From a virus, in IMG/VR virus record IMGVR_UViG_3300042938_001744, positions 1 through 50,626 of that record: DNA of 50,626 nucleotides; one strand, given 5' to 3'. The number at the start of each line of letters is the position of its first letter. Within the stretch, counting starts at the first letter, position 1. Position numbers and translations under genes: made by a program. This document shows positions 1 to 28,920 of this stretch, piece by piece. The notes under the pieces are model-generated. The model had not been told where the DNA came from. It did no database searches and worked only from the letters and a program-made list of their open reading frames with translations.

Positions 1-91
1 GACCCCCCGAAACGCTATAACATCATGCCACCCATCGGTTTATTTTTTTGTCTGCCGTTCGTAGACCCCCCGAAACGGGCTAGACCCCCCG
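1..91. repeat. Three short GACCCCCCG repeats at the left edge
   Basis: GACCCCCCGAAACG occurs at 1-14 and again at 64-77, and a third shorter copy (GACCCCCCGCCTCG) begins at 83. No convincing gene covers this stretch. The copies lie beyond the terminator of the leftward operon. They could be binding sites, part of a genome terminus or the edge of a convergent intergenic region. The function cannot be told from sequence. Confidence 0.6.
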
Positions 92-103
92 CCTCGAAGC
101 AAA

Positions 104-137
104 AAACCGCTCCTGAAGTATATCTCAAGAGCGGTTT
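104..137 (-). terminator. Rho-independent terminator of the leftward operon
   Basis: AAACCGCTC at 104-112 is perfectly complementary to GAGCGGTTT at 129-137, a 9-bp stem with a 16-nt loop. Read on the minus strand the stem is followed directly by a run of T (GGTTTTTTGC), which is the classical intrinsic terminator layout. It lies about 70 bp beyond the last minus-strand gene and so probably ends the whole early transcript. Confidence 0.85.
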
Positions 138-165
138 GTATACGCTTTGTTTACGCGCTTACGGC

Positions 166-210
166 TTTCGTGCGCCTTAAACTATTAGCTGACTTTTGTT
201 TCGTGCGCCT
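166..210. repeat. 12-bp direct repeat TTTCGTGCGCCT
   Basis: TTTCGTGCGCCT occurs at 166-177 and 199-210. The second copy reaches into the stop codon of the lipoprotein gene. The role is unknown; it may only reflect a small duplication at the gene's 3' end. Confidence 0.5.
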
Positions 211-583
211 ATAACCGCTTTCCCCTCAATTTTAGGTTTCCGTGATCATACCAAGATATGACCTTCGGGGTCCTCCCTCCGCTGAATTTAACATTCGAGT
301 ATCCGAAATAGGCGATCCCCATTCGCTCCATCAACGCAGAAGGAGGCCCCTGAATGGCGACGACCTCTTGGTAGGTCGAGCCGAGGCCAAAACCATCGCG
401 GACTGGAATCACTGCTGGAACTTCTTCATCTCCTACATGAGTCGTTGAAGTTATGCCGCCACTCTTCTCTGAAACGCCGATAGCCATAATCCTCGCGGAG
501 TAGGTTTGATCTATCTGCGTGTTTCGTGGTGCGTAGGTGCAGGAGGCTATGAATGGGACGAGGAGTAGTAGTGAGCGTGTCAT
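209..583 (-). CDS. Small lipoprotein with BamE/SmpA-like domain
   Basis: The 124-aa product starts with a short signal peptide ending in a lipobox (PFIASC), so Cys15 should be lipidated and the protein anchored in a membrane. The remainder contains a GSTYQEVVAIQGPP motif followed by AYFGYSNVKF and a final basic stretch. This is the pattern of small BamE/SmpA-like lipoprotein domains (GST..EV...G.P......YG.S.V.F). I chose the ATG at 583 because it gives a compact signal peptide; an upstream in-frame ATG at 619 would add 12 residues. It is the last gene of the leftward operon, where phages often carry cargo genes. A role in altering the host envelope or excluding other phages is inference. Confidence 0.75.
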   Translation of the reverse strand: MTRSLLLLVPFIASCTYAPRNTQIDQTYSARIMAIGVSEKSGGITSTTHVGDEEVPAVIPVRDGFGLGSTYQEVVAIQGPPSALMERMGIAYFGYSNVKFSGGRTPKVISWYDHGNLKLRGKRL

Positions 584-637
584 TGTATGCTTAGACACCT
601 TTACGAGGTTATCGTTCAAATTTAATAACCCGCCCCA

Positions 638-659
638 GGTACATGTTGAAATGTACCTA
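638..659. repeat. 8-bp inverted repeat AGGTACAT/ATGTACCT
   Basis: AGGTACAT and ATGTACCT flank a 6-nt loop between the micropeptide gene and the lipoprotein gene. There is no T-run on the minus strand, so it is not a standard terminator. It may be an RNA hairpin that separates expression of the lipoprotein from the upstream genes, or a protein-binding palindrome. Confidence 0.5.
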
Positions 660-664
660 GGTAT

Positions 665-748
665 CTACTCGTCGAACCCTTTCATGCCGTCGTATACAAC
701 GTACAGTATAATGGCTGCTAATACGATATAAGCGATAATGTATCCCAT
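665..748 (-). CDS. 27-aa single-pass membrane micropeptide
   Basis: Reading frame of 27 codons: MGYIIAYIVLAAIILYVVYD then GMKGFDE. Residues 3-19 form an uninterrupted hydrophobic helix long enough to span a membrane, followed by a short charged tail. The start follows the stop of the upstream micropeptide by three bases (stop at 752-754), so translation could be coupled. No Shine-Dalgarno is seen of its own. I do not recognise a family. Its size and placement beside another membrane micropeptide and a lipoprotein suggest membrane-directed accessory functions. Confidence 0.55.
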   Translation of the reverse strand: MGYIIAYIVLAAIILYVVYDGMKGFDE

Positions 749-751
749 ATA

Positions 752-817
752 TCAGTGTTTCCTGATCCAGTGAAGCAGGACGAGGTTCGTCAGAAGAAGT
801 GCTACTATGATTGGCAT
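752..817 (-). CDS. 21-aa hydrophobic micropeptide with strong ribosome binding site
   Basis: A 21-codon frame, MPIIVALLLTNLVLLHWIRK followed by H. It is hydrophobic over residues 2-16 and basic at the C-terminus, as expected of a membrane-inserted peptide. The case for translation is the ribosome binding site: AAAGGAGGG lies about nine bases before the ATG, one of the best Shine-Dalgarno matches in the window. The start overlaps the end of the upstream 80-aa gene (805). No family recognised. Confidence 0.55.
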   Translation of the reverse strand: MPIIVALLLTNLVLLHWIRKH

Positions 818-1047
818 GACTCGGACCCTCCTTTAAGGGAGTACCACCCTTGGGTGTCTTTGAATACTTTACCCTGCGTCTCCATGTGTTCGAGGGTACG
901 TTCTGCTAATTCTTTGGCGTCTGACCAGAGTGATTTTTTCGCGCCGTTTGGGTATATTTGGGCGATTACATCTAGCCTATCGATGGCCCCTCGTCGGCGC
1001 GATTCTGATTCTTTAAACGCCTGCATGACATAATGCTCAATGTTCAT
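805..1047 (-). CDS. Hypothetical protein, winged-helix-like
   Basis: An 80-aa soluble protein whose start overlaps the stop of the upstream gene by ATGA (1044-1047). The sequence alternates predicted helices (residues 2-13, 36-58) with a short C-terminal strand-turn-strand (KVFKDTQGWYSLKG), which resembles a small winged-helix domain. That is only a fold-level impression and I do not recognise the family. It sits in the string of small early genes, so a regulatory or host-modulating role is possible. Confidence 0.65.
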   Translation of the reverse strand: MNIEHYVMQAFKESESRRRGAIDRLDVIAQIYPNGAKKSLWSDAKELAERTLEHMETQGKVFKDTQGWYSLKGGSESCQS

Positions 1048-1235
1048 TCTTTGTCACCTCCTACCATCTCGTTGTAGATTTCGAGGTGTTTTGACACTTG
1101 TTCTTTGGCAGAGGTGCAGCCGTGAGTCTCCTTGAGTTTTCGGTAGTGGGCTACGGCTTGGGGCCATTGGTCGTGCCAGCCGGATGAGTTTACTAGCCTG
1201 TCGGCACATTCTTCCCAGATTGATTTAGCGTTCAT
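1044..1235 (-). CDS. Hypothetical small early protein
   Basis: 63 aa beginning MNAKSIWEEC. This start was preferred over the in-frame ATG at 1274 because GGAGGG lies about nine bases upstream of 1235, while the longer form would overlap the neighbouring gene by 50 bases. The protein is acidic-basic mixed and helical, rich in Trp and His, without a recognised motif. It overlaps the next gene downstream by ATGA. Confidence 0.65.
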   Translation of the reverse strand: MNAKSIWEECADRLVNSSGWHDQWPQAVAHYRKLKETHGCTSAKEQVSKHLEIYNEMVGGDKE

Positions 1236-1889: not shown

Positions 1890-2140
1890 AGTGGTGTTTT
1901 TCTTTGGTTTTGTCGGAAATATGTATGCTTTTTTCCGCCAGAACTTTGTAGCTCGTAGAACTTCTTTCCCTTACCTGTGAACCAGTTAGCAAAGTGGCCG
2001 AAGTCCCTGGGTTCGGTGACGTTGTTATTGAGTTCGCACACGTCACATTTGCCAAAGTGCCAGGAGGCGATTCGGGGCTTCTTGGTACCGTGCTTCACGC
2101 CGCATTCCCAGCAGCACCAGTGCGGGTAGTCTCTAGTCAT
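1886..2140 (-). CDS. Zinc-ribbon-like small phage protein
   Basis: 84 aa starting MTRDYPHWCCWECGVKHG. Two CxxC pairs (CCWEC near residue 9 and KCDVCE near residue 31) are spaced like a treble-clef or zinc ribbon, followed by VTEPRDFGHF, a motif I associate with small uncharacterised phage proteins. The ATG at 2140 overlaps the upstream gene by eight bases and was preferred to the distant in-frame ATG at 2224, which would overlap it by about 90. DNA or RNA binding is an inference from the Cys pattern. Confidence 0.65.
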   Translation of the reverse strand: MTRDYPHWCCWECGVKHGTKKPRIASWHFGKCDVCELNNNVTEPRDFGHFANWFTGKGKKFYELQSSGGKKHTYFRQNQRKTPL

Positions 2141-2351
2141 AGTTGCGGCAGAGTTTGAACATCTTGTTGATGGCTGCTCGGACATGAACCCACTCGTCCG
2201 CGTCGAAGCGTAGCTTTTTACCATCCTGGCTAATCTCTAGGAACTCCCCACCTGCTTCGTCGATGATCTCGATCTCGGTAATGCTCTCGGAGAAGAGTTG
2301 CTCCCCTTTGACCCCGACTATGATCTTCGTTATTCGTGTTTCGTATGTCAT
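2133..2351 (-). CDS. Hypothetical small phage protein
   Basis: 72 aa: an N-terminal beta-rich half (TRITKIIVGVKGEQLFSESI) and a C-terminal helix after a DADEWVHVRAAI motif. The layout resembles a group of uncharacterised phage proteins in replication neighbourhoods, though I cannot name a family. Start overlaps the preceding stop by ATGA at 2348-2351, implying translational coupling. Confidence 0.65.
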   Translation of the reverse strand: MTYETRITKIIVGVKGEQLFSESITEIEIIDEAGGEFLEISQDGKKLRFDADEWVHVRAAINKMFKLCRNYD

Positions 2352-2557
2352 TTAAGTCCTAGTAGGGCTCTAAAGCCTTTGAGTTTTTCGTTCATATCCT
2401 CGAATTTTTCTATTTCGCTTTCGTGGACTTCGTAGGTTGTCCATTGTCGGGAGCAGCCAAGTTTCTGGCAGTACCGTTTCCGCATGACTCGGTTTCCCGT
2501 CTTGCGGGAATCGGATACCATTGAGTCGGAGTCACATTTGGGGCAGTGTTTCGCCAT
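2348..2557 (-). CDS. NrdR-type zinc-ribbon protein
   Basis: 69 aa. The sequence CPKCDSDSMVSDSRKTGN followed by RKRYCQKLGCSRQWTTYEVH matches the plan of the NrdR zinc ribbon: two CxxC/CxxxxC pairs, a DSR motif after the first pair and an RxTTYE-like end. The ATP-cone domain of true NrdR is missing, so only the DNA-binding module remains. It probably binds DNA and may act as a small transcription factor. A short gap separates it from the 82-aa gene upstream. Confidence 0.7.
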   Translation of the reverse strand: MAKHCPKCDSDSMVSDSRKTGNRVMRKRYCQKLGCSRQWTTYEVHESEIEKFEDMNEKLKGFRALLGLK

Positions 2558-2558
2558 A

Positions 2559-2807
2559 TTATTTAAGAGCTGCTATTCGGATTTTGTCTGCTGGGATTGT
2601 GAGAGCTTCGCAAACCTCATTAAAGAACCCGCTCTTGAAGAAGTGTTTCGCTGTCATTTTGTTCTTTGTTGCATTGGAGTTGTCATAAGTTCTTTTATAT
2701 TCCGAGTCACCTCGGAGGTCTGAGTAGGCACATAGAATCATTCCGCATAGGAGGTTGCGGGTGAATGATAATTCTATGTGTAGTTGTTTCTCGTCTTCGG
2801 GGTTCAT
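2559..2807 (-). CDS. Hypothetical protein, paralogue of the 105-aa early protein
   Basis: 82 aa. Residues 38-75 share a pattern with the protein at 5224-5541: an ILCA segment, then A..F..S...(Y/F)..(I/V)CE.L.(L/I)PAD.IR. The final PADKIR helix looks like the recognition part of a small helix-turn-helix, but this is not proven. It is the first gene after a long structured leader (2808-2954) with a TGTAATAACC motif at its head, so its expression is likely controlled separately from the replication genes. Confidence 0.7.
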   Translation of the reverse strand: MNPEDEKQLHIELSFTRNLLCGMILCAYSDLRGDSEYKRTYDNSNATKNKMTAKHFFKSGFFNEVCEALTIPADKIRIAALK

Positions 2808-2831
2808 TGATTTATTTTGTAAAAAGTGGGT

Positions 2832-2933
2832 ACCCGCCTTCCGTGGTTAGGCCACTCGCGGCGGGTGTACGAGTTAGAAAGAGGAAGGAGACCTGAACTC
2901 TCCCACCACGGCCAGGGCACTCACGGCTTGCCC
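2832..2933 (-). promoter_or_regulatory. Structured RNA leader upstream of the 82-aa gene
   Basis: Three stems can be drawn in this untranslated leader: ACCCGCC (2832-2838) with GGCGGGT (2860-2866), enclosing GTGG/CCAC (2843-2846, 2852-2855); GGAGA/TCTCC (2887-2903); and GGGCA/TGCCC (2915-2933). Two segments, GCCGTGAGTGCCCT and GCCGCGAGTGGCCT on the minus strand, are near repeats. The region has no convincing frame and begins right behind a TGTAATAACC motif. It could be a riboswitch-like element, an antisense RNA or an attenuator. Confidence 0.45.
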
Positions 2934-2944
2934 AATAATTATGC

Positions 2945-2954
2945 GGTTATTACA
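2945..2954 (-). promoter_or_regulatory. TGTAATAACC motif
   Basis: Exact TGTAATAACC on the minus strand, directly behind the stop codon of the replicative helicase and 137 bp before the next gene. It would head the transcript covering the structured leader and the small genes 2807-209. Confidence 0.5.
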
Positions 2955-4295
2955 TTATTGCCGAGCATCATAAGTTGCAGGTTCTGGAGCGTCCACCCAA
3001 GGAAGGTATATCTTGAATTTGAGAGATTTCTTGGAAAGTGGGGACTTCGGCAGGACTTCAACGCCCATGTCCCCTCGTGCCGCTAGTTCGCGGAGCTTGA
3101 ATGATAGGATGGTTTGGTTCAGTCCACGGAGTTGCTCGGGGCTATTCCTGAAACAGGCGCCTAATTCCTCTAGGATCGCTGATGCCGTTCCTACGAAGGG
3201 GGTTAGCCTCTCTGGTGCAGTGCGCCGTGACCACCATTCGTTGAGCTTCTCGTGAACGGCTCCGGTGTAGGACGATTGAAACTGCTTCTCCTTGATCTCG
3301 TTTGCAACGATAGCGCGGATTCCGTAGCGCCCACGGTTGTCGATGAGTTCGTCTGGTGGAGTCCAACTGAGAAGCCAAGCGAGGAAGTGGGGGAGTTCCG
3401 TTGTTTCAATGTTGTCGAAGACATTGGAGGCAGGGTGATCCGCCCAAGATTTCAAGTAGACGCCGATGATTTTGTCCGCGTTGGAGAGTTCCATCGTTGG
3501 CATGAGGCGGATAGAGACAGGATCGTCGTTCAGGGCAAGGACGACACGCCCCCGCCATTCGACCTCGGTAGGCGTCTGGTACTTTTCATGGTACATGTGA
3601 CTGCCGTGGGCGACGAGTTTCTTGAGGGCGCTGGCGTAGGCGAGACGCTTATCCTCAGAGCTGGCTCCTTGGGAATCGTCAATAACTGCGAGTGGGGAGC
3701 GGAAGACCTCGGCGTTGAACCCTCCAGCTTGTCCGTTTGCCATGTTGGACATATCTGAAAACCCACCCATTGCGGGCTTGAGGATTTTATGAATCGTCCA
3801 TGACTTGTAGCAGTGAACCGGACCAACAAGGGCCAATATTTGACCGATGGCTGGGTCGCCTGCTAGGGCGGTGGAGTAGAAGCGTTTGAACCAAGCGAAG
3901 AAAAGGAACTTGTAAGTATCTGATGCGAAGACGTTATCATATACTTGAGCAATGATCGGAAACTTCTCTCCCCAAGCGGAGGACGCATCTGCTGGCTGCA
4001 TGACCTTCACGAACGAGAGGTTCAGGAACTTGCGACCTGACTTATCGACAATGTCGTTCTTGTCGTACAGGAACGGGGCTGCTCCATCTACGCGGCGAGT
4101 CTTGAGGATAGTCAGCATCGCCTTGTCGAAGGGGGACGCCGCTTGACCCTTAGCTGCCTTGGTTGTAAACCCGCGAACCTTGACATGGCTGGATACCATT
4201 ACTGCGCTGAGAGGTCTCCAGAAACCATCCGCTGCACGGTCGTAGAATCCCTTGCCGTCGTAGGCGAGGTCATCAAACGCCGCTGGATCGACCAT
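2955..4295 (-). CDS. SF3-like replicative helicase (primase-associated)
   Basis: 446 aa from the proposed ATG at 4295. The frame is open further, to 4604, but that extension would be an acidic low-complexity stretch overlapping the conserved end of the primase gene. The ATG at 4295 sits five bases after the primase stop. An N-terminal domain (FDDLAYDGKGFYDRAADGFW) is followed by an ATPase core: a P-loop-like GPVHCYKSW, a Walker B-like LAVIDDS, an NxxFN-type segment and a sensor-like LNDDP. The order matches the helicase part of phage and plasmid primase-helicases (DUF5906-like). The P-loop is unusual, with Tyr where Gly is expected. It should unwind DNA at the fork with the upstream primase. 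Confidence 0.75.
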   Translation of the reverse strand: MVDPAAFDDLAYDGKGFYDRAADGFWRPLSAVMVSSHVKVRGFTTKAAKGQAASPFDKAMLTILKTRRVDGAAPFLYDKNDIVDKSGRKFLNLSFVKVMQPADASSAWGEKFPIIAQVYDNVFASDTYKFLFFAWFKRFYSTALAGDPAIGQILALVGPVHCYKSWTIHKILKPAMGGFSDMSNMANGQAGGFNAEVFRSPLAVIDDSQGASSEDKRLAYASALKKLVAHGSHMYHEKYQTPTEVEWRGRVVLALNDDPVSIRLMPTMELSNADKIIGVYLKSWADHPASNVFDNIETTELPHFLAWLLSWTPPDELIDNRGRYGIRAIVANEIKEKQFQSSYTGAVHEKLNEWWSRRTAPERLTPFVGTASAILEELGACFRNSPEQLRGLNQTILSFKLRELAARGDMGVEVLPKSPLSKKSLKFKIYLPWVDAPEPATYDARQ

Positions 4296-4300
4296 CGACC

Positions 4301-5227
4301 CTATGCCGCTCGCTTGGGCAAAAGCCCTATAGGCAGCAGCATCGGATTCGGGTTCAGAAACAGAAGGCTCTGCTCCCGCAGGTTGTCCGCCCTCGTTACC
4401 TTCGGAAGTCTCGTCAGCCTCACTGCTGTCAGGCTCCCTGGGCAAGCTCCCAGTGGGACTACTATCGACGCTAGGTCCCGAGTTATCCTCGTCCACTCGG
4501 TTTTGTTGGGCGCTGACACTTGCACTAGGGCGTGTGCCGATGAGTTCCCCGACAAGGTTATAGATGTGATGCGGATTGGGAGTTGTTTCAGGATCGTGAG
4601 CCATAGTTCAGGTGCTATATTGTCGCTCTCAATGAGGGCGTATTTGAAGTTTGTTGTGTTTTCCTCGGAGCGACGACTTGCTTTCCCAAGACGTGCGATC
4701 TGTTGGTAGTTTCCGGTGACTGGGTTCATTAGGAACCAAGCACCGTTCTGGTTGTGCCGGATGACTCTATCGAGTTCTTCCTGCGTGGTTGAGTGTGACC
4801 ATACGAGCTGCCCTTGAGTGCGGTCGTTGGTGAAGATAATAGTTTTTTCGTTAGGTCCGAAGATGGCTCTGAGTGTTCCAGTAAGAGAAATCCAGTCTGG
4901 ATCGATCGGGCTCAATGCCTTGATCTCCTCGAAGCTGGTCGGCCCTTGTGCCGTGAGTCGCTTGATTGCGGTTGGATCAACAGTGAACTTCGGGATATAC
5001 TCGGCTGACGTCGGCCCTCCTTGCGTTGCCCTGCGGATCGTATTCTCGATTTCGCTTGGTTGTGGGGGGCGAGTCATCCACTCTGTAACGAGGTCGAGGA
5101 TTTCGTCTTCTTCTATCTCGTTGCGGATGAGAGCACTCACCGCTGACATGAGCCAGCGATGGCATCCTTCCCCTGATGGGGGACAGTCGGCTACGCCAAA
5201 CTCACTCGGGCTTTTTAACGTCATCAT
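4301..5227 (-). CDS. Primase-polymerase (AEP-like) domain protein
   Basis: 308 aa. The N-terminal third is helical and resembles a PriCT-type segment (residues 15-75). The C-terminal half has the arrangement seen in phage and plasmid prim-pol proteins: FKYALIESDNI, then LPIRITSITLSGNSSAHALV (a strand followed by a SGxSxHAxV signature), then a basic RLTRLPKV and LLFLNPNP near the end. By family knowledge this domain makes primers for replication. It lies directly upstream of the helicase with a five-base gap, whereas the two activities are often fused. The first acidic catalytic motif is weak, so the catalytic assignment is provisional. Starts with ATGA overlap to the upstream gene. Confidence 0.65.
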   Translation of the reverse strand: MMTLKSPSEFGVADCPPSGEGCHRWLMSAVSALIRNEIEEDEILDLVTEWMTRPPQPSEIENTIRRATQGGPTSAEYIPKFTVDPTAIKRLTAQGPTSFEEIKALSPIDPDWISLTGTLRAIFGPNEKTIIFTNDRTQGQLVWSHSTTQEELDRVIRHNQNGAWFLMNPVTGNYQQIARLGKASRRSEENTTNFKYALIESDNIAPELWLTILKQLPIRITSITLSGNSSAHALVQVSAPNKTEWTRITRDLASIVVPLGACPGSLTAVRLTRLPKVTRADNLREQSLLFLNPNPMLLPIGLLPKRAA

Positions 5228-5541
5228 TTTTCGGTTCCTCCTTCTTCTTGAAGATCAAGTCGTAATTCTCCCTGAACTTTTTGTGGTCGAACCCTTTTCT
5301 TGTTTGGTCGCCCTTCCCGTTTCGTACTCTGATTATGTCTTGTGTCATAAATTGAATTTCTAATTGTATCTGCTGGCAAATTTAGTGTTTCGCATATTGT
5401 TTCGTAGGTGTCTGAACTTAGAAACTTAACTGCCAGTGCTTTGTTGGTTCCTTTGCAGAATTTCGCGTCGTGGGCCGATTGCTCGATTATGGCGCATAAA
5501 ACAGCTCGCACTCCCACTCCGCAAACTTCACTATTTTGCAT
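5224..5541 (-). CDS. Hypothetical DNA-binding-like protein, paralogue of the 82-aa protein
   Basis: 105 aa. Residues 11-60 contain the pattern shared with the gene at 2559-2807: VLCAII, then AVKFLSSDTYETICETLNLP and ADTIRNSI. The C-terminal third is very basic (KREGRPNKKRVRPQK), which fits nucleic-acid binding. It lies between the DNA polymerase (overlap 11 bases) and the primase (ATGA overlap), so it is co-expressed with the replisome. No named family recognised. Confidence 0.65.
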   Translation of the reverse strand: MQNSEVCGVGVRAVLCAIIEQSAHDAKFCKGTNKALAVKFLSSDTYETICETLNLPADTIRNSIYDTRHNQSTKREGRPNKKRVRPQKVQGELRLDLQEEGGTEK

Positions 5542-7333
5542 ACCGCTTCATTACTTCTGCTTCCGCGCCTACTGGTAGCGTCTTGCACCACTCTGGCGTT
5601 GTTGACATTAGGGTTTCGATCTCTTTTCTGGAGTCTTCTGCGGTTGCTTCATCGACGATACAGACGACTTCATCGTGGACTCGCAGGATAACCTCGTAGC
5701 CTTTTTCCGTCACCGCCGCCACTCGATCCATGAAGACGTCGCGGGCGAAAGCCTGAGTGAGATTCTCAGCTAACAGCCCGCCGTAAAGTTTGCTACGGAG
5801 CATCTTGCCGTTGCGTGGGATTACTCCGCTATACCCCGTTTTATGAATTCCATTGAAGTCATTTACTTTTTCCCACTTTTTAGGGCAAAATGTTTGAGGT
5901 AGCCCAGTAACGGCACGGTATATGAGTTGACGACCGCTTGGGAGCGTAACAGTTAGGTGTGATCCTTGTGACTTTCTGAGGCAGTCTTCTAGCGCCCCCC
6001 ACAATGCCACGATTTTCGGATTAGATTTGCGGTAGTCTGTGACAACGCGCTCCGCTTCTTGCGGTGAAATCTCCAACCCTGCCATCATTTTCGCTACGAC
6101 TTGAAACTTGTTAGCCCCGCATCCGAATCCAAGCCCTAGGACGCGAGCTTTAGCCAGTTGGCGTAATGCTTTATCGACATCTTTGAGCGGACGAGGGTCA
6201 TTGTAGCCCATCGTTGCCCTTGCGTGAGCCTCGTAGACATCAACGCCCGTGCGAAGAACCTCAAGTGTGGCTTTATCTCTGGCTAGATAAAGTATGCAAC
6301 GGGCTTCAATTTGAGCTAGATCGCAGACCACGAGCATCTTCCCTTCTGGGGCTTCGATGAGTGAGCGAATATCTACGCCTGAAACTACGTCTCTGGGTAG
6401 GTTTTGAGCGTTCCAACCGCCTGATCCCGAGTCGCGGCCTGTGGTAGCTCCGAAATACTTCAAATCGTAGCCCATTCGACCGCATGGACGGGTGCGAGTG
6501 AGCATGGTTTGGATGGTTTTAAGGTGCTTATTGGCCTTTCGGTGGTCGCGGATCGCTCGAACCCAAGGATAAGTGTCTTGGAAGGCTTCTTCCCACCTCT
6601 GAGCGTCGTCTTCTTTCTCTGCGAAGCTCTCTGGAGCCCAAATCCCCTCTTTAGTGCATTGATCCCTGACCGCGTGAAGCGATAAAGCAGGGCGGTCGGG
6701 GTGCCAAGGCAGGAGATCGCGTGTTTTTTCGCTCGTTTCGGCTAAAGTTATAGCACTTTCGCGTAACTTCTTTATATTTACGGGCACTCCACGCATTGTC
6801 ATCTCGCGTGTGAGCTTAGAAATTGTCCTTTCGCGCTCGGGCCACTTATCCCCATGCTTGAGCCAAAGATTCAGCGTATTCTCGGCATCCGAGAGGGCAT
6901 ATTTCCGAACATCTTCCTGAAAGTCTGGGGTCATGGTCGCCCACTGCTTCTTTTTCATCTTATCCCGCACGTCTTTTGAGATTTCCAGCCCTAGCAGATG
7001 GTGAGATGCCTCTTTCAAGGATCGCGGGTAGCTGAAAAAGGCGGTCATGTCTGCGGTATCGTAGACCTTCTCCGCGTAAACAGGCTGGACGATTTCTTTT
7101 TCAATGAGGCAATCCAAGAGAGTCAGATCGAATGCCGCGTTGTGCATGATCCAAGTCGCCCCGTTCACGACCTCCCAAGGGGCATCTTTTGGGTGCCCGA
7201 CGAAACGTAGTCCGTTATCCCCCGCCATAGACACTAGGTAGATGTCAGTCGCCCGCGCGTAATGCCACCCACCCAGCGTCGTTATGCTGGTTTCATTGTC
7301 GTAGTACGACTCGAAATCAATAGCACAGATCAT
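5531..7333 (-). CDS. Family A DNA polymerase with 3'-5' exonuclease
   Basis: 600 aa, phage-sized Pol I. Exonuclease motifs are visible: IDFES (Asp6, Glu8), MHNAAFDLTLL (Asn65, Asp69) and YALSDAEN (Asp149). Polymerase motif A is VVCDLAQIEAR (Asp338), motif B is RQLAKARVLGLGFGCG (Arg391, Lys395) and motif C is RVHDEV (Asp554). All catalytic acids are present, so it should be an active replicative enzyme with proofreading. The residue equivalent to E. coli Phe762 is Leu399, and Tyr766 is Phe403. There is no 5' nuclease domain, as usual in phages. Its start overlaps the upstream stop by one base. It leads primase and helicase in one operon. Confidence 0.95.
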   Translation of the reverse strand: MICAIDFESYYDNETSITTLGGWHYARATDIYLVSMAGDNGLRFVGHPKDAPWEVVNGATWIMHNAAFDLTLLDCLIEKEIVQPVYAEKVYDTADMTAFFSYPRSLKEASHHLLGLEISKDVRDKMKKKQWATMTPDFQEDVRKYALSDAENTLNLWLKHGDKWPERERTISKLTREMTMRGVPVNIKKLRESAITLAETSEKTRDLLPWHPDRPALSLHAVRDQCTKEGIWAPESFAEKEDDAQRWEEAFQDTYPWVRAIRDHRKANKHLKTIQTMLTRTRPCGRMGYDLKYFGATTGRDSGSGGWNAQNLPRDVVSGVDIRSLIEAPEGKMLVVCDLAQIEARCILYLARDKATLEVLRTGVDVYEAHARATMGYNDPRPLKDVDKALRQLAKARVLGLGFGCGANKFQVVAKMMAGLEISPQEAERVVTDYRKSNPKIVALWGALEDCLRKSQGSHLTVTLPSGRQLIYRAVTGLPQTFCPKKWEKVNDFNGIHKTGYSGVIPRNGKMLRSKLYGGLLAENLTQAFARDVFMDRVAAVTEKGYEVILRVHDEVVCIVDEATAEDSRKEIETLMSTTPEWCKTLPVGAEAEVMKRYAK

Positions 7334-7590
7334 TATAAAAGCTCTGGCAACTGTCTCTCTTGTTTCAACTCAATGAGAACGTCGCGGACGATCTCAACTG
7401 TCGTGTAGTCTGGCTTAACGAGGATTCCATCTTCGTCCCTCCACTTAGAAAGCAAGCCGCAATCGTGGTTGAGGAGCGATCTGATTTCGTTGAGTAGGTC
7501 GTCGATGACTAGCAATGCGTCCACCCCCTTAAGGGCGTAGAGATGCTCGTTTTGTTCTTCTGGTAGATTAAATTCTAGTGTGGCTTTCAT
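7333..7590 (-). CDS. Small phage protein (MKATLEFNLPEE type)
   Basis: 85 aa starting MKATLEFNLPEEQNEHLYAL. The ATG at 7590 forms an ATGA overlap with the upstream stop; an earlier in-frame ATG at 7620 is less likely. This N-terminal signature (beta strand, LPEE, then helix with LKG) occurs in a common small phage protein found beside replication genes, whose function I do not know. The product is acidic and mostly helical. Confidence 0.7.
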   Translation of the reverse strand: MKATLEFNLPEEQNEHLYALKGVDALLVIDDLLNEIRSLLNHDCGLLSKWRDEDGILVKPDYTTVEIVRDVLIELKQERQLPELL

Positions 7591-7847
7591 TTTGATGACT
7601 TGCTTCCTTCGCATTTCCATTTTTTACGGGACAGGTTGTTCGGGCTATTGGGGTCACTCTTCCAGTCACCCTTTATTTTTGCTGACCTAGCGCAGTAAGC
7701 GTCCCCCTTTGCTGTACCTGGCCTGATACGGTCTCCTCCGTCTTTTGCCGCGCCCGCTTGACCAAACTTGACGGTTTTAGTCCGTCCTGTTTCTGGATTT
7801 TTAACTATTTTTGCGAATCGTTTTTCCATAAGAGATATAGGTTGCAT
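7587..7847 (-). CDS. Small basic phage protein (DUF6321-like)
   Basis: About 86 aa from ATG 7847, or 80 aa from ATG 7829. Contains RFAKIVKNPETGRTKTVKFG, then GTAKGDAYCARSAKIKGDW and a C-terminal SPNNLSRKKWKC, an arrangement I recall from a small phage family (probably DUF6321). The protein is strongly basic with two Cys. Unusually, a TAATAACC motif ends directly at the 7847 ATG, inside a perfect inverted repeat, so the true start may be 7829 with the palindrome in the leader. Confidence 0.65.
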   Translation of the reverse strand: MQPISLMEKRFAKIVKNPETGRTKTVKFGQAGAAKDGGDRIRPGTAKGDAYCARSAKIKGDWKSDPNSPNNLSRKKWKCEGSKSSK

Positions 7848-7867
7848 GGTTATTACTCCATGCAACC
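7840..7867. repeat. Perfect 10-bp inverted repeat around a TAATAACC motif
   Basis: GGTTGCATGG (7840-7849) and CCATGCAACC (7858-7867) are perfect complements separated by eight bases. The minus-strand motif AGTAATAACC (7848-7857) occupies the loop and two bases of the arm. It could be an operator that overlaps a promoter element, or an RNA hairpin at the start codon of the 86-aa gene. Confidence 0.6.
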
Positions 7868-7878
7868 CATTTGTTGAC

Positions 7879-8631
7879 TCAGGGGAGTGTGTTAATGAGT
7901 TCTTTTTGGGCTTCGGTTACGAGACCCGCCGAACGAATCGTCGGTGTCCACCATGACTTGTCAGCCTTAGTGGTGATGAGCGAACCGAGGTCCCACTGCC
8001 CACCTTTAAGACCGCAAGCTGCGAGGTGTGTGCGAAGCGAAGTTGCGATTGGAACTGCGACACCGCTGTACGATGTCGAAGCAAATGTTGCAACGGCTCG
8101 TGTGTAGCGAGTGCCGTCGGAAGCGATGTTGTAGAACAAGGATTCACTCTCTTCGCAAAGCCCCTCGATTGCCTGAATCAGGAACTCAACGGTGGCGATC
8201 TCCGAGAAGAAATTCGCCCCACGAGTCCAATGCACCTGACCCCCTACATCCCGCACCTGTGCGGCTGTGGAGAACATTCGGACTTGCGTGTTTTCACGGT
8301 CGTCGTAGGGAATATTTTCTTGATACTGCTTCATCATTTGCAACGCGATGACGCGAAGTGCGACTCCCTTTTTCTTGTCCTTCGGATCGATCCCACTGAT
8401 CTGGTGTTGCTTGTCGAGAACCCAAGTTCCTGGGCTGAATTGATCCGCTAGAACGCCCGTCTTGTTGACGAGGTTGATGCGTGGGAGCTTCGTGTCGCTT
8501 GCGCTCCAATCTCCGATGAGCCCCTTGTCGGAGTAGTCATTGGTGCTGATATTTGCGAGCGCGTTTGCTTCCGGCTGCGTTGTTACGAGTTGTTTCGTGT
8601 TTTCGATTTCGTCGAATGATATGGTTGCCAT
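7879..8631 (-). CDS. Probable ssDNA-binding/recombination accessory protein
   Basis: 250 aa, soluble. The centre of the N-terminal half reads SDTKLPRINLVNKTG followed by FSPGTWVLD, close to the D..IPRL.L.Q pattern of phage proteins that sit with recombination nucleases. No transmembrane segment, and the C-terminus is mixed rather than strongly acidic. In nuclease operons of this type (DUF2800 proteins) the neighbouring gene usually codes for an ssDNA-binding protein, which is the main reason for this call. It has its own TGTAATAACC motif 42 bp upstream. A structural or unknown replication role is also possible. Confidence 0.5.
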   Translation of the reverse strand: MATISFDEIENTKQLVTTQPEANALANISTNDYSDKGLIGDWSASDTKLPRINLVNKTGVLADQFSPGTWVLDKQHQISGIDPKDKKKGVALRVIALQMMKQYQENIPYDDRENTQVRMFSTAAQVRDVGGQVHWTRGANFFSEIATVEFLIQAIEGLCEESESLFYNIASDGTRYTRAVATFASTSYSGVAVPIATSLRTHLAACGLKGGQWDLGSLITTKADKSWWTPTIRSAGLVTEAQKELINTLP

Positions 8632-8673
8632 TTTTAGTATTTTAGTGGTTTAGTTTTGTTGTTCTGGTTATGG

Positions 8674-8683
8674 GGTTATTACA
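8674..8683 (-). promoter_or_regulatory. TGTAATAACC motif
   Basis: Exact TGTAATAACC on the minus strand between the helicase-nuclease gene and the 250-aa gene, 42 bp before the latter's ATG. The following sequence is A-rich with little Shine-Dalgarno character. Confidence 0.5.
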
Positions 8684-8708
8684 TGAGACGCGGAATTTAT
8701 CAATCCGT

Positions 8709-11093
8709 TCAAACTATTTTTGACTTTTTCAAAAAAAGAATCGTCCCTTCTACTTTTGCCGCATTCGCGTCAATGAGAGCATCTCGCAAAGCTGTTTTAG
8801 ACTTAGCCATTTGCCCTCGTTCTGCGGTGCGTGAAACAGCTTTTTCTAGTTCACCAATTTTTAGTTTGGCGCAAGCTGCGAAAGCTTCTGGGGTGATTTT
8901 ATTTTTCACGACTTCCCATGCTGCTTGAGCGTCGGTGATGTCAAACGCACTAGAGCGTTCGGCAAGTTCCCAACCTGGGATTTCCACCCCCGAGAGTCGA
9001 AGCTCTAGGGCGCGGGCGTCTACTTTTTCCGCCCATCCCTTTAAGATCGGCGAGAGTCTTTTCGCTAATGCCATTTTCTCTGGATCGGTGATGATCGCGG
9101 GATCAAACTGCGGTGGGAGAGCCAGCTCGTCAGGCTGATATTTACGAGCGATGGTGAGGGCGAGGCTGTTGAGCTTCGGGCACTCGGCGCGGTGAGCGCA
9201 CCATGCACAATGACCCCCTGTTAAATAGGCTGCTGGGTCGTTCCGCTTCGCGGCTTCAATGATCGCCGTTACTTGCGCTACGAGGCGGTCTAGGTCTTCT
9301 GAGCGAGTCCAACTAACTACGTCTATGATCCCTTGGAAGGGGAGAACAACGTGAACTGTGAGGGTTTCTACTCTTTCATGCGCGTGGAAAATGCCAATGG
9401 CGTAAGCCCAAAATTGAGGCGAGTCGGCTTCGTATTTTCCCCATGCAAATTTGTAGTCCACCAATTCTGCACTGGTTCCGTGAACCATGACGTGATCGAT
9501 ATGCCCGAACTGATCGAGTACTACATAACGACGCTCGCGAATATCTTCCACAGGTGCTTGGCACTTGGCTCGCAGAGAGGTGAGGTACTGCAAGCACAGC
9601 CCTGCACTTTTGCGGAGAAACTCGTCGTCGGCAGGGATGACATCGAGGTTTTCTTTCTCGACGGCAAGGTGCCCTAGGGAGCCTCTATCTGCTGCGGTAG
9701 TATCGCGGGTTTGGTCATTACGAAAGCCTGGGCATTTCGCTTTTTCTTTCAGAGAGGACGGCGAATGCTCGGCGTGTTCTCTCTCGTTGTTTGCTAACGC
9801 GAGTGAGACTTCTCTCACGTCGCGCAGTTGTGTTGTTGTGTCTGACATAATTCCTTCGTTAAAAATTGTTGTATTCTCGCGCTTGTGGGCTGTGAGGTGC
9901 AGTGCTGCTTGCTCCACGGTCCCTGAGACAAACAATCGGAGAACCAATGCGCGGTTTTTTCCACCAAATCGTCGGATGCGACCTATTGCTTGTTCCTCTG
10001 CGGTGCCGCTAAATTGTGGGCAGATTAGGGCAGTGCGTGGAGCGTTACCATGAACGTCGTGGAGGTCGATACTCTGGCCTCCAGCGCCGATTTGAATGAC
10101 GAGGCAGCGGAGGATATTTGCCTGGAATTTATCGCGGCTCAACTGTCGCATATTCTGCGACACCCTCCCGTCTATTGTTTCGGAGATGTCGCCAAGAAGC
10201 TTTGAAGCGAGATCGATGGAAGCATGGAAGTTGAGGAACATGACTGCACTGCCTCCGTCTTCCACGATCGCTGCTGCACGCTCTACGAGGTAAGGAATTT
10301 TTATGAGTTCGATCGCTTGGCGCTGCCTCAAGTTCTTCACAGCCGCTGGGTCTTCGATGTCCACCATCTCTGAGTAGAGCTTGTGAATTTCTTCACGGTC
10401 GAGTGGTGATATAAAAATGGGTTCGTCGGAAAGCGTGAGGTCTGGGAGCTGCTCGCTTAAAACCGCGTCAGGCGTCCTGTTGCCGCGAGTTGTAAACACG
10501 GAATCGTGGAGGTGCTGCATTCGCAGTTTGTTTTCTTTTACCTTCGGGTCCCATTCTAGCCCGCCCCATTGACCTCGTTCGGCCCCCATGTGAGCGGCCC
10601 AGTTCCAGAATTGACGTGAGTGAAATAGCCCTAGTTTCACTCCAATGCTTTTCATTCGGAGCGGGCTCTCTGCGGCTGTGGCAGAAAGCATGAGAGTGCG
10701 GTAGGGAGAGGCTTCGAGCATCTTTCCGTTGGCGGATTTTATACCCGCGCACATGTGAACTTCATCGACTATGAGAAGGATCGATTCGGGCACCCATTTA
10801 AAATTACTACCCACTTTTTTTAACCATGCGGTGTTTCCAGCACGGAGTTTTTCAGGGTTCTCGACAAACACGGGATCAATGCCGAACGACTCCAGAGTGG
10901 CTTGCCACTTGGCTTTGACGCTCTTTGGGCAGATCACTCCGACTGGCAGCGCGTAGCGCCGAGCGACTTCACAAGCGATGATGGTTTTCCCCCCGCCGCA
11001 GCCAGTCGCCTCTAAAGAGGCACCGTTTGCATCTAGGCTTTTGAGGTTTTTTTCCACCGCTTCTTGTTGAAACGGGTAGAGGGTAAATTTCAT
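8709..11093 (-). CDS. SF2 helicase fused to Cas4/RecB-type Fe-S nuclease
   Basis: 794 aa. Residues 1-415 are a superfamily 2 helicase: Q-like N-terminus (YPFQQEAV), Walker A ATGCGGGKT (29-37), DEVH box (110-113), SAT (137-139) and motif VI QAIGRIRRF (368-376). Residues 416-794 look like a DUF2800-type exonuclease: KCPG (Cys454), RGSLGH (His475), GHIDH (Asp533), LVDYK (Asp546, Lys548), SPQFWAYA (Gln560) and GHCAWCAHRAEC (Cys629, 632, 638). The four Cys fit a 4Fe-4S cluster. The halves are usually separate genes. An in-frame Met416 is preceded by GAAGGA six bases upstream, so the nuclease could also be made alone. Likely role: DNA end processing and recombination during phage replication. Confidence 0.85.
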   Translation of the reverse strand: MKFTLYPFQQEAVEKNLKSLDANGASLEATGCGGGKTIIACEVARRYALPVGVICPKSVKAKWQATLESFGIDPVFVENPEKLRAGNTAWLKKVGSNFKWVPESILLIVDEVHMCAGIKSANGKMLEASPYRTLMLSATAAESPLRMKSIGVKLGLFHSRQFWNWAAHMGAERGQWGGLEWDPKVKENKLRMQHLHDSVFTTRGNRTPDAVLSEQLPDLTLSDEPIFISPLDREEIHKLYSEMVDIEDPAAVKNLRQRQAIELIKIPYLVERAAAIVEDGGSAVMFLNFHASIDLASKLLGDISETIDGRVSQNMRQLSRDKFQANILRCLVIQIGAGGQSIDLHDVHGNAPRTALICPQFSGTAEEQAIGRIRRFGGKNRALVLRLFVSGTVEQAALHLTAHKRENTTIFNEGIMSDTTTQLRDVREVSLALANNEREHAEHSPSSLKEKAKCPGFRNDQTRDTTAADRGSLGHLAVEKENLDVIPADDEFLRKSAGLCLQYLTSLRAKCQAPVEDIRERRYVVLDQFGHIDHVMVHGTSAELVDYKFAWGKYEADSPQFWAYAIGIFHAHERVETLTVHVVLPFQGIIDVVSWTRSEDLDRLVAQVTAIIEAAKRNDPAAYLTGGHCAWCAHRAECPKLNSLALTIARKYQPDELALPPQFDPAIITDPEKMALAKRLSPILKGWAEKVDARALELRLSGVEIPGWELAERSSAFDITDAQAAWEVVKNKITPEAFAACAKLKIGELEKAVSRTAERGQMAKSKTALRDALIDANAAKVEGTILFLKKSKIV
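9846..9861 (-). promoter_or_regulatory. Internal ribosome binding site and start inside the helicase-nuclease gene
   Basis: On the minus strand GAAGGA stands six bases before an in-frame ATG (9848) that begins MSDTTTQLRD, exactly at the helicase/nuclease domain border. It may be the relic start of a formerly separate nuclease gene or a working second start producing free nuclease. Confidence 0.45.
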
Positions 11094-11371
11094 TCTTCCT
11101 CGAATTTAGAAATCTGCGAACTGCATTTGGCGTAGCCTGCGATGTCGACATAAGTGTCGCGTGTGGGAGTGTAGCAAGCGCGAGCCATTTTGAGCACGAT
11201 CATCATGTGAGCCACATCCAGAGCGGATAGCGGAGCCTCGGGCTCTTTCCTCGCTTTGAGGTACCAGTTCCATCCATCAGCGATTCTTTGGTGGTTCGAG
11301 GTCGCTTTGTCGTAATCTCGACGACGATCACCCGTCGTCACTTCCATTGCTGTTTCAAGTATGCTGTTCAT
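11090..11371 (-). CDS. DUF6378-like phage protein
   Basis: 93 aa, all helical by inspection. The sequence GDRRRDYDKATSNHQRIADG, then SALDVAHMMIVLKMARAC and a closing DTYVDIAGYAKC matches the layout of the widespread phage family DUF6378. Family members look like the all-alpha NTP-pyrophosphatase group (MazG-like), which would suggest nucleotide clean-up, but that link is an inference. Coupled by ATGA overlaps to the genes on both sides. Confidence 0.75.
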   Translation of the reverse strand: MNSILETAMEVTTGDRRRDYDKATSNHQRIADGWNWYLKARKEPEAPLSALDVAHMMIVLKMARACYTPTRDTYVDIAGYAKCSSQISKFEEE

Positions 11372-11709
11372 TTAACTAGAGAGGATTCACGGAGGATGGA
11401 GATAAAATCTTCAGCGCGTAAAACGACGATCCATCCGTGGTCATTGCGCTTATGAAAAACGGTGGGGATTTTACCCTCTTTGGCGTCTCTCACCGCCTGT
11501 TCGAGCCACACATAGGGGTTCCCCGCCTCGACGCGCTTGCATTCGATATGCAGTGGGAGAGAGTCGCAAATGACATCGTCTCCAGTTAGTCCAAATCGCC
11601 CTTGGCTGAATTGAACTCCGCGTTTGGCGGGGAACCCCTCCTCGGTCAGAAAAGAGGCCAGCTCTCGCTCGCCCCTAGCGCCTTTCGCTCGTGAATTTAT
11701 TTTTCCCAT
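11368..11709 (-). CDS. PD-(D/E)XK endonuclease, resolvase/VRR-type
   Basis: 113 aa. A basic N-terminus (KINSRAKGARGERELASFL) with a conserved Glu is followed by GDDVICDSLPLHIECKR, the PD-(D/E)XK core (Asp44 and the ECK triad near 56-58), then a helix with QAVRDAK. This is the plan of small archaeal-type Holliday junction resolvases and related phage nucleases. It probably cuts branched or specific DNA intermediates and fits the recombination genes next to it. Start overlaps the upstream gene by 13 bases and lies 10 bases after a TGTAATAACC motif. Confidence 0.8.
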   Translation of the reverse strand: MGKINSRAKGARGERELASFLTEEGFPAKRGVQFSQGRFGLTGDDVICDSLPLHIECKRVEAGNPYVWLEQAVRDAKEGKIPTVFHKRNDHGWIVVLRAEDFISILRESSLVK

Positions 11710-12014
11710 GCGGTGATGTGGTTATTACATTTAGACTGACCCTTAGCCCACTTGGTAAGGTCAGCTTCTTTGTATACGAACTTTTTTAATCCGAGCTTCC
11801 GGTAAGGAAGGTGCATATTATCGCGCCAGTAGGCAAGGTTGCCACGGGAGACTTTTCTCCCGAGCAACTCGCTCAACCGCTCTATTGCTGCTTCGGCCTC
11901 GTATGAGGCTTCGGCGTCTTTCCCTTTTGGGGTAGCCCCTTTTACTTCGAGGCTTATTTTGCCGTCCCCCAGAGGGGTTGCGGTGAAAGAACTGCATTCA
12001 AGTATTAGTGTCAT
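11697..12014 (-). CDS. Excisionase-like helix-turn-helix protein
   Basis: 105 aa. Residues 40-90 contain a helix-turn-helix with wing typical of MerR/excisionase-like domains: IERLSELLGRKVSRGNLAYW, then LPYRKLGLKKFVYKEADLTKW. The N-terminal 35 residues are beta-rich and less typical. Its position two small genes downstream of the integrase supports a role as recombination directionality factor or as a small regulator. The 3' end of the gene contains the motif for the next gene. Confidence 0.65.
   Translation of the reverse strand: MTLILECSSFTATPLGDGKISLEVKGATPKGKDAEASYEAEAAIERLSELLGRKVSRGNLAYWRDNMHLPYRKLGLKKFVYKEADLTKWAKGQSKCNNHITAWEK
11720..11729 (-). promoter_or_regulatory. TGTAATAACC motif
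   Basis: Exact TGTAATAACC on the minus strand, embedded in the 3' end of the excisionase-like gene (encoding part of CNNHIT) and ending 10 bases before the nuclease start at 11709. Confidence 0.5.
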
Positions 12015-12057
12015 ATTTGATACTGGGGGGAGTTACCCTCCCCTTGTAATACAATTT

Positions 12058-12237
12058 TTAAGTGGTTATTATGCAATCAGACTTTTCACCGAGTAGTTCT
12101 GAATCATCGGAAGCGGACCTTACCATATCTTCTACAAATTCCGCTGCTAAAACTTCGATTTCGACGCCACTATTTTCAGCGAAGATACGAAGTTTCTCAT
12201 GGATTGTGGAGTTTACGGCGATGGTGATTTTTGTCAT
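12058..12237 (-). CDS. Small ribbon-helix-helix-type protein
   Basis: 59 aa. A short N-terminal strand (TKITIAVNS) followed by two helices (TIHEKLRIFAENSG, EIEVLAAEFVEDMV) is the layout of Arc/MetJ/CopG ribbon-helix-helix proteins, which bind operators as dimers. The acidic tail (SASDDSELLGEKSD) is extra. It is the second of two such genes between integrase and excisionase-like gene, so it may act in the integration/lysogeny switch. It stops just before the next block, and its last codons contain a CATAATAACC motif. Confidence 0.65.
   Translation of the reverse strand: MTKITIAVNSTIHEKLRIFAENSGVEIEVLAAEFVEDMVRSASDDSELLGEKSDCIITT
12064..12073 (-). promoter_or_regulatory. CATAATAACC motif
   Basis: Minus-strand CATAATAACC, a one-class variant of the shared motif, within the last codons of the 59-aa gene and 49 bp before the excisionase-like gene at 12014. 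Confidence 0.45.
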
Positions 12238-12323
12238 ATTGTGTATGGTCTAAAACTGCACCGTGAGGGTTAATATTCACGAAATGGCAGTTGGGGTTTT
12301 GGTTTGGGGGTTAAACGCTCGGC

Positions 12324-12611
12324 TTATCTGCCGAGCATAGCAATTTTCTTCAAGCGTTCGAGTGTTGCTAAGTCCAAAGACTCAGAGACTCTTTCGTCAG
12401 GGCTGTCTGATTGTTTTTCAATCAAGTGTCTTGCTAGTGAGATTGTTTCTCCACTTGGGTCTTCTTTCTTCAAGAAGTCTATAACCGCTTGTCGGATGAG
12501 TGCGCTAATTGTCACCCCTTTTGCACCCGCGAGCAGAGTGATTGCTTTATTGTTTAATTTTGATTCAACATACGACACGCGGAGCGTGCCTTCTCTTAAT
12601 TTATTTGGCAT
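12324..12611 (-). CDS. Ribbon-helix-helix/plasmid-type regulator
   Basis: 95 aa. After a basic arm (MPNKLREG) comes TLRVSYVESKLNNKAITLLA and GAKGVTISALIRQAVIDFLK, a strand-helix-helix arrangement typical of ribbon-helix-helix regulators. The C-terminal 40 residues are charged and helical. It probably binds operators in this region and may be the repressor or antirepressor of the phage, but there is no direct evidence of which. A GATAATAACC motif lies 61 bp upstream. Confidence 0.65.
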   Translation of the reverse strand: MPNKLREGTLRVSYVESKLNNKAITLLAGAKGVTISALIRQAVIDFLKKEDPSGETISLARHLIEKQSDSPDERVSESLDLATLERLKKIAMLGR

Positions 12612-12672
12612 TTTATTTCAGTTGGTTGGTTTGATGTGGGCCCCGCTGTCTTACTCATCTCGATTAAATCGG

Positions 12673-12682
12673 GGTTATTATC
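12673..12682 (-). promoter_or_regulatory. GATAATAACC motif
   Basis: Minus-strand GATAATAACC in the 153-bp gap between integrase and the 95-aa regulator. A small palindrome CGATTAAATCG lies next to it (12661-12671) and a short hairpin (ACACC/GGTGT, 12687-12707) on the other side. Confidence 0.45.
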
Positions 12683-12764
12683 TTAGACACCATGTTTGCA
12701 CAGGTGTTCAATCTTTTTTTTGTTTTTTTTATGGGATAGTTTTAGGCGCATGAAAGTAAAATCT

Positions 12765-14003: not shown

Positions 14004-14032
14004 TTTTCAGTTTGTTTTTGGTTTGTGATTAT

Positions 14033-14049
14033 GTCCCAGAAGTTGGGAC
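14033..14049. promoter_or_regulatory. Inverted repeat GTCCCA-TGGGAC (operator or integrase arm site)
   Basis: GTCCCA and TGGGAC flank five bases. The flanks (TGTCCCAGAA and TTGGGACAAAA) recur at 14136-14162, so this is a repeated binding site in the divergent control region. Confidence 0.55.
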
Positions 14050-14064
14050 AAAACGTGTTATTGG

Positions 14065-14075
14065 GTGTATTAACC
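14065..14075 (+). promoter_or_regulatory. GTGTATTAACC, variant of the shared motif
   Basis: GTGTATTAACC differs by one base from GTGTAATAACC and is identical to the site before the gene at 16085. It lies about 205 bp before the terminase gene. Confidence 0.4.
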
Positions 14076-14084
14076 TAATACAGT

Positions 14085-14090
14085 TTTATA
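14085..14090 (-). promoter_or_regulatory. Extended -10-like box for the leftward operon
   Basis: Minus-strand TTGTATAAAAC contains TG-TATAAA, an extended -10 resemblance, about 80 bp before the integrase start. No convincing -35 box was found. It mirrors a similar box on the other strand at 14203. Confidence 0.35.
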
Positions 14091-14135
14091 CAACCGCAAA
14101 TGAAAAAACCCGTATCTTTACCTAGTGAGCGGAGA

Positions 14136-14162
14136 TTTTGTCCCAGAAAATTTTGGACAAAA
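14136..14162. promoter_or_regulatory. Inverted repeat TTTTGTCC-GGACAAAA (operator or arm site)
   Basis: TTTTGTCC (14136-14143) and GGACAAAA (14155-14162) are perfect complements around 11 bases. Shares TGTCCCAGAA and ACAAAA with the repeat at 14033. A third half-like TTGTCCCCAG ends at the base before the terminase ATG. Confidence 0.55.
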
Positions 14163-14170
14163 AGGGGCAG

Positions 14171-14200
14171 CGCATACGGGATTTGAATTCGACTACGATT
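14171..14200 (-). other. tRNA-3'-end-like sequence, candidate attP core
   Basis: GGGATTTGAATTC (14178-14190) resembles the reverse complement of a tRNA T-arm and 3' end. It is not a tRNA: the bases that should pair with the T stem do not. Phage attachment cores often copy a tRNA 3' end and lie beside the integrase gene, as here. Speculative. Confidence 0.3.
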
Positions 14201-14202
14201 TT

Positions 14203-14210
14203 GTATAAAT
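14203..14210 (+). promoter_or_regulatory. Extended -10-like box for the rightward operon
   Basis: TTGTATAAAT has an extended -10 look (TG-TATAAA) 72 bp before the terminase ATG. A poor -35 candidate TTGAAT lies 15 bp upstream at 14183. With the box at 14085 it would form a divergent pair around the inverted repeats. Confidence 0.35.
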
Positions 14211-14281
14211 AGTTTATAGATCAATGGTTTTTGCAAAGTCGTATTTGACCTTGAACCAAGTTAGACCTACCTTGTCCCCAG

Positions 14282-28747: not shown

Positions 28748-28748
28748 T

Positions 28749-28919: not shown

Positions 28920-28920
28920 T

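Follow-up and report, generated by a model that had tools for sequence, protein, structure and literature searches.

What does a phage gain from a small lipoprotein gene placed at the border of its early genes? The question is raised by the 50,626-base linear viral contig IMGVR_UViG_3300042938_001744, which is, in its whole length, called the window here. Its genes include a phage DNA polymerase, a primase, a helicase/exonuclease, a RusA-like resolvase, an integrase, a terminase and tail genes, and it is ascribed to a tailed phage of a presumed Gram-negative host. An earlier note had claimed a lipobox lipoprotein with the motifs GSTYQEVVAIQGPP and YFGYSNVKF near the start of the window. Both motifs and the lipobox were found in the product of the ORF at 209-583 on the minus strand, named P0001 here (Table 1).

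The N-terminus of P0001, MTRSLLLLVPFIASC, fits a lipobox-like pattern (FIASC), which is matched by both phage proteins, P0001 and its homologue P0002. Such a start is found in 2 of the 127 ATG-started window ORFs of at least 60 aa, and in 20 of 10,000 shuffles of P0001. The signal peptide is short, with 14 residues. In E. coli, the Lol sorting rule predicts an outer-membrane location for a lipoprotein whose residue +2 is other than Asp; since residue +2 after Cys15 of P0001 is Thr, an outer-membrane location is predicted for it by that rule. The gene for a lipobox protein is confirmed, with export and lipidation predicted from the sequence pattern. An in-frame TTG at 619 is unlikely to be the start, because the matching TTG in the related phage contig L014 lies 35, not 36, bases before the ATG and is out of frame, so that the frame of P0001 is taken to start at ATG 583. 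A lipobox scan also returned a small lipoprotein ORF at 14803-15018 of another relative (L019), which was found by sequence searches to be unrelated to P0001.

Table 1. Features at the lipoprotein gene, in window positions.
Feature	Position	Strand	Remarks
Lipoprotein gene (P0001)	209..583	-	124 aa, ATG start, TAG stop; dN/dS ~0.16 vs L014 homologue
Signal peptide, residues 1-14 (MTRSLLLLVPFIAS)	542..583	-	Lipobox-like pattern at residues 5-15; predicted cleavage
Codon of presumed lipid-bearing Cys15	539..541	-	C-T-Y-A-P after cysteine also in L014 homologue
Residues 16-60, without predicted structure, starting CTYAPRNTQI	404..538	-	pLDDT <50 for residues 21-48
BamE-superfamily domain, ~residues 64-120	224..394	-	HMM 39.5 bits over residues 65-120; model; structure matches
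GGTGTCTAA; likely ribosome-binding GGTG inside	591..599	-	9/9 identical upstream of gene in both phages; putative role
GGTTATTAAATTTGAACG; candidate promoter or leader element	613..630	-	18/18 bases identical in L014; end of inverted block 214-630; putative role
Perfect 8+8 inverted repeat AGGTACAT-6-ATGTACCT; possible operator or hairpin	637..658	.	Just outside block 214-630
Terminator-like hairpin with T run, downstream of P0001 gene	104..137	-	

Viral relatives of the window (61 loci, L002-L062) were gathered via the neighbouring primase-like protein and the polymerase. One of them, L014 (contig IMGVR_UViG_3300044646_002195), encodes P0002, a protein of 121 aa that is 74% identical to P0001, and the CTYAPRNTQI stretch is well conserved between the two. 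Over 117 codons, the genes differ at 20/17/53 first, second and third codon positions, and ~56% of synonymous sites differ. A dS of 1.05 against a dN of 0.17 argues for purifying selection on the protein, and a genuine protein gene is confirmed at the sequence level. Scans of viral records with P0002 and with the pair recovered nothing beyond the L014 contig; records very near the window may have been excluded from them. Nineteen of the 61 loci, on 18 contigs, reach at least 4.9 kb past the primase match, and the gene is present in one of these 18 contigs.

When P0001 was searched directly in Pfam, PHROGs, NCBIfam and PDB sequences, no useful match came up, the one PDB line being Tom40 at E 0.87, and direct family searches with P0002 found no match. 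The only phage-record match to P0001 at E 1, Brevundimonas phage Domovoi, is antisense to annotated genes and was ascribed to chance. Plasmid and phage searches with P0002 returned no match at E 1, and its domain alone returned only a Gordonia phage at E 6. A search for DUF4124 gave no match anywhere, controls included.

The family was reached through a postulated consensus of a bacterial domain family, which retrieved a Paenibacillus plasmid protein with three repeats and 27 loci in the genome collection; a viral scan with this consensus found no relative. An HMM was built from 70 cellular domain copies, after the first copy of locus L092 had been dropped. Among 14,665 sequences, it scored P0001 at 39.5 bits (E 2.3e-10) and P0002 at 51.9 bits (E 3.2e-14), as compared with 6.1 bits for the best of 1,000 shuffles and at most 6.5 for all other window ORFs. 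Because the consensus was a postulated one, a reverse test was run with a phage-only profile of P0001 and P0002. At E 0.001, this profile matched 14 of 297 genomes in the phylum of the Desulfobacca record, 3 of 288 in that of the Chthoniobacter record, 2 of 297 in that of the Acidobacterium record and 1 of 296 in that of the Rhodothermales record. The domain was confirmed in the matched loci except L100, an Acidobacterium-phylum match over query columns 13-57, in which no domain was found and which was taken as chance. The confirmed matches are confined to the C-terminal domain, and none of them is a full-length host homologue. Profile-profile comparison of the phage pair with the cellular domains gave 99.1%, the best of 100 column shuffles reaching 6.3%, and the reciprocal match between the phage domain and the BamE-like repeats of cellular J-domain proteins is significant.

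These J-domain proteins with tandem BamE-like repeats, from Desulfobacterota, Acidobacteriota, Verrucomicrobiota and others, are the closest domain sequence family found for P0001. Fifteen of the distinct matched proteins listed carry HPD near the N-terminus and two to four domain stretches (five listed in one), and Pfam DnaJ was confirmed in four of six cellular proteins checked (L074, L083, L066 and L079; not L078 or L069). Unlike P0001, they are not lipoproteins but membrane proteins that have their J-domain in the cytoplasm and, as a rule, 2-4 repeats. Alike in make-up are two lipoproteins of the Verrucomicrobiota phylum, one of 220 aa with a single domain at residues 60-123 (L095, locus L134) and one of 280 aa with two domains (L096, locus L135). 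Like P0001, both have a lipobox, a stretch of ~40 residues and a domain from residues 60-65 onward, but both have long C-terminal extensions, and the L095 domain is ~38% identical to that of P0001. A domain tree, based on ~55 residues and with long branches, places the phage pair beside L095 at a local support of 0.80. Such a sequence family, linking small phage lipoproteins, cellular J-domain repeat proteins and BamE, provides a handle for annotating unnamed phage and host proteins. As a separate observation, proteins that combine a J-domain, a transmembrane segment and BamE-like repeats (L066-L092) are widespread, and their repeat is mostly without a Pfam match beyond borderline PF04355.

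The link to BamE itself was sought through PF04355, the Pfam family of BamE/SmpA/OmlA. Neither P0001 nor P0002 matches it even at E 10, and the L095 lipoprotein (L134:5128-5790) has no Pfam match at E 0.1. The phage-only profile finds a Verrucomicrobiota protein at E 9.0e-5 that itself passes the PF04355 cut-off: this intermediate, L135:3069-3911, scores 47.3 bits in two stretches (cut-off 23.2). Six other cellular proteins gave 21.7, 21.2, 14.4, 13.0, none and 26.1 bits. The Paenibacillus plasmid protein came to 22.6 bits. Against a set of BamE, OsmE and PF04355 hits, the profile of the cellular domains gave 88.6% over 42 columns (shuffles 3.0%), and that of the phage pair a weak 33.7% over 18 columns (shuffles 3.4%); against E. 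coli BamE and OsmE alone, the cellular domains gave 13.2%, a figure without shuffle control.

An AlphaFold2 model of P0001 was obtained from a 48-sequence alignment that included 46 of 71 cellular domain copies. Its pLDDT is 90-98 per ten-residue block over residues 61-120. The single predicted model comprises a helix at 71-78 and strands at 83-85, 90-93, 96-100 and 107-112, with no N-terminal helix. BamE is built of two helices followed by a three-strand sheet. With VIA-align, 22 chains reached Z of at least 5 before realignment, the rows being BamE, OsmE, BLIP, YjgB, BtiO and similar. E. coli BamE (9mgg_E) aligned at Z 6.6 with an rmsd of 2.7 over 53 residues, and Bartonella BamE at Z 6.8 with an rmsd of 10.2, which is no clean superposition. 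OsmE (4dm5) gave Z 5.8, an rmsd of 1.9 over 50 and 28% identity, YjgB Z 6.2, the Bacteroides T6SS immunity protein BtiO Z 5.7 and BLIP Z ~5. All of these lie below Z 8, a range in which, according to the tool's note, a match may reflect just a common arrangement. Foldseek found no PDB or viral match to the model at E 0.001 or better, the best being 0.49 (PDB) and 0.17 (viral). At the fold level, the helix and beta-meander core of the model superposes on solved BamE, OsmE and BLIP members.

The BamE/SmpA-like domain of the earlier note thus holds for the superfamily, through the L135 intermediate and the alignment of the model with BamE and OsmE. The structure prediction that had been proposed as a check, with a lack of any similarity to such folds counting against the claim, came out in its favour. 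Membership of the domain in the BamE/OsmE/BLIP superfamily is well supported by sequence intermediates, whereas strict BamE membership is not supported, since neither phage protein matches PF04355, and the single predicted model shows one helix against two in BamE. Compared with BamE, a part of the BAM complex, P0001 is likewise a lipoprotein and shares the helix motif G-(S/M)-T-x-x-x-V-x-x-x-x-G-x-P with a beta meander after it, but its tether is different. OsmE, an osmotically inducible E. coli lipoprotein encoded by a stress-induced host chromosomal gene, is also a lipoprotein and gives the best superposition of the P0001 domain, yet it has no closer sequence relation to P0001 and matches it weakly by profile (E 0.46). 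Among viral structures, the best match is A0A8E4ZK99, an annotated lipoprotein of Winogradskyella phage Peternella_1 (probability 0.98, rmsd 1.6 over 48 columns), but at an E of just 0.17 and 12% identity. The host of that phage is a flavobacterium (PMC8776804).

The surroundings of the gene differ between the two phages in one respect. All along the early genes (window 1978-15963), the alignment with L014, in which they are reversed, keeps one sense. The C-rich repeat flank (window 62-117) follows that sense, though its alignment is weak (E 0.019). The block 214-630, which holds the gene and ~47 bases upstream of it, aligns in the opposite sense (E 1.7e-47). In both phages the gene lies between the last early genes and the C-rich repeat/terminator region, and from these alignments it looks like the same spot occupied in opposite directions. 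The genes preceding P0001 in the window run in its direction; the L014 copy faces the end of the early genes. The gene had been described as the last of the early operon before the terminator, and so it stands in the window, with same-direction genes before it and the hairpin behind it; because it is reversed in L014, it is not a fixed member of that operon. In the relative L002, the early-strand ORFs end, ahead of the C-rich repeats, with a gene for an ECF-type sigma factor in place of the lipoprotein gene.

The upstream elements GGTTATTAAATTTGAACG and GGTGTCTAA are identical in the two phages while so many synonymous sites differ, a contrast that suggests a control region belonging to the gene itself. 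A scan for sigma-70-type promoters listed none in the block 214-630. The inverted repeat outside the block has one window match at up to 3 mismatches, the chance mean being 0.06, and none was seen in the L014 sequence. The opposite orientation together with the identical 18-base upstream element fits an accessory, 'moron'-like gene, and the arrangement is consistent with a self-contained unit exchanged or inverted between related phages.

Several minor features were seen around the gene. By eye, a short direct repeat (ATAACC...CGC) flanks the gene block in both phages, at 209-215 and 613-630 in the window and around 16520-16534 and 16926-16943 in L014; it may be a recombination site or due to chance. 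Repeats of the [GC]TA[AG]ACCCCCC type adjoin the gene at 1-96 in the window and at 17030-17360 in L014. Two tiny hydrophobic ORFs on the minus strand, 665-748 (27 aa) and 752-817 (21 aa), separate the lipoprotein gene from the early operon. The leader of the gene (584-670, minus strand), which covers the likely ribosome-binding site, has an unusually good RNA fold (z -4.17); a conserved RNA was dropped as a candidate there, the L014 leader having z -1.19 and Rfam giving no match at E 1 over window 1-1100. The ECF-type sigma factor gene of L002 (12873-13370, plus strand), at the early-gene end, matches Sigma70_r2 and r4, and an ORF similar to it by eye occurs in L010, in which the C-rich pattern was not found.

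What such a protein does was approached through its superfamily. By analogy with BamE, OsmE, BLIP and the immunity proteins, the role of P0001 would be to bind proteins in the periplasm, and it may alter the host cell surface. A precedent is Llp of phage T5, a small phage lipoprotein that faces the periplasm at the outer membrane and blocks the receptor FhuA (PMC9586334); Llp is likened to P0001 in mode of action, not in fold or sequence. Given that known superfamily members bind proteins and that T5 Llp offers the precedent, we read P0001, tentatively and at somewhat less than even confidence, as a tethered protein that binds an outer-membrane protein from the periplasm, the most likely gain being superinfection exclusion; the identity part of this reading alone is very probable. 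The signal peptide would be removed and Cys15 lipidated, after which the protein would be carried to the outer membrane, facing the periplasm. A flexible tether of ~45 residues would then present one small BamE/OsmE/BLIP-superfamily domain, which may grip a host outer-membrane protein, either a phage receptor or a BAM component, from below. Such binding would protect the cell from infection by a second phage, as happens when T5 Llp blocks FhuA. The gene appears to carry its own upstream signals, with a putative promoter of its own. Should this role be confirmed, the BamE-type domain, a common module for binding proteins in the periplasm, would be shown to serve phages in controlling the host outer membrane. 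Among the open-licence papers listed, none dealt with a phage-encoded BamE-like lipoprotein, which does not imply absence from print.

A bolder version, which seems quite unlikely, makes P0001 a minimal BamE mimic, tethered to the outer membrane, that would replace BamE at the BAM complex, redirect or stall outer-membrane protein assembly and so remove phage receptors from infected cells or lysogens, its gene moving as a unit that inverts or is reinserted together with an upstream signal of its own. Another possibility, of limited likelihood yet to be taken seriously, is a captured host envelope protein of the BamE/OsmE type that keeps a host-like function: while the phage infects or persists as a lysogen, it would help to build the outer membrane or keep it intact, perhaps by stabilising the BAM complex or the cell wall, and would not exclude other phages. 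Cellular lipoproteins with one or two such domains do occur in two Verrucomicrobiota genomes, and the phage pair groups with one of them, but that grouping rests on few residues and long branches, the L095 protein lacks a Pfam match, and the genome matches cover the C-terminal domain with no full-length host homologue. Since cellular lipoproteins of like make-up exist, gene capture from a host, for which the earlier note had proposed a search for host homologues, is plausible from the sequences, but no close donor was found.

The structure matches to BtiO and BLIP would also fit an inhibitor that silences a periplasmic enzyme or an incoming toxin and protects the infected cell from competitors or a defence, and an AAA gene, itself followed by one with a SMODS domain, lies on the same strand 456 bp downstream of L095. 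A common fold, however, proves no function, and the neighbourhood comes from one relative; this account appears unlikely. That locus (L134 1946-5790, minus strand), with its single-domain lipoprotein near SMODS-domain (CD-NTase-like) and AAA ATPase genes, has an arrangement like that of a CBASS defence locus. Neutral cargo, a decaying remnant or a chance ORF would agree with the presence of the gene in a single one of the 18 far-reaching contigs, but was already disfavoured and is very improbable in view of the purifying selection and the conserved upstream block. The least credible reading is that of a lysis lipoprotein, an outer-membrane spanin: phage lipoproteins are often o-spanins, but the P0001 gene sits away from the better window candidate, a 66-aa lipobox ORF near a CHAP-domain ORF, and its folded domain is of a different type. 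The host was also sought through the terminase: among 276 genomes of the Verrucomicrobiota phylum, one has a 27% relative, which is too weak for a call. The better spanin candidate belongs to a possible lysis cassette at 28284-29513 on the plus strand, in which an 88-aa ORF is followed by the overlapping 66-aa ORF (28547-28747, o-spanin-like by eye), a short hydrophobic ORF at ~28750-28920 and the CHAP ORF at 29001-29513, and this cassette suggests a Gram-negative host.
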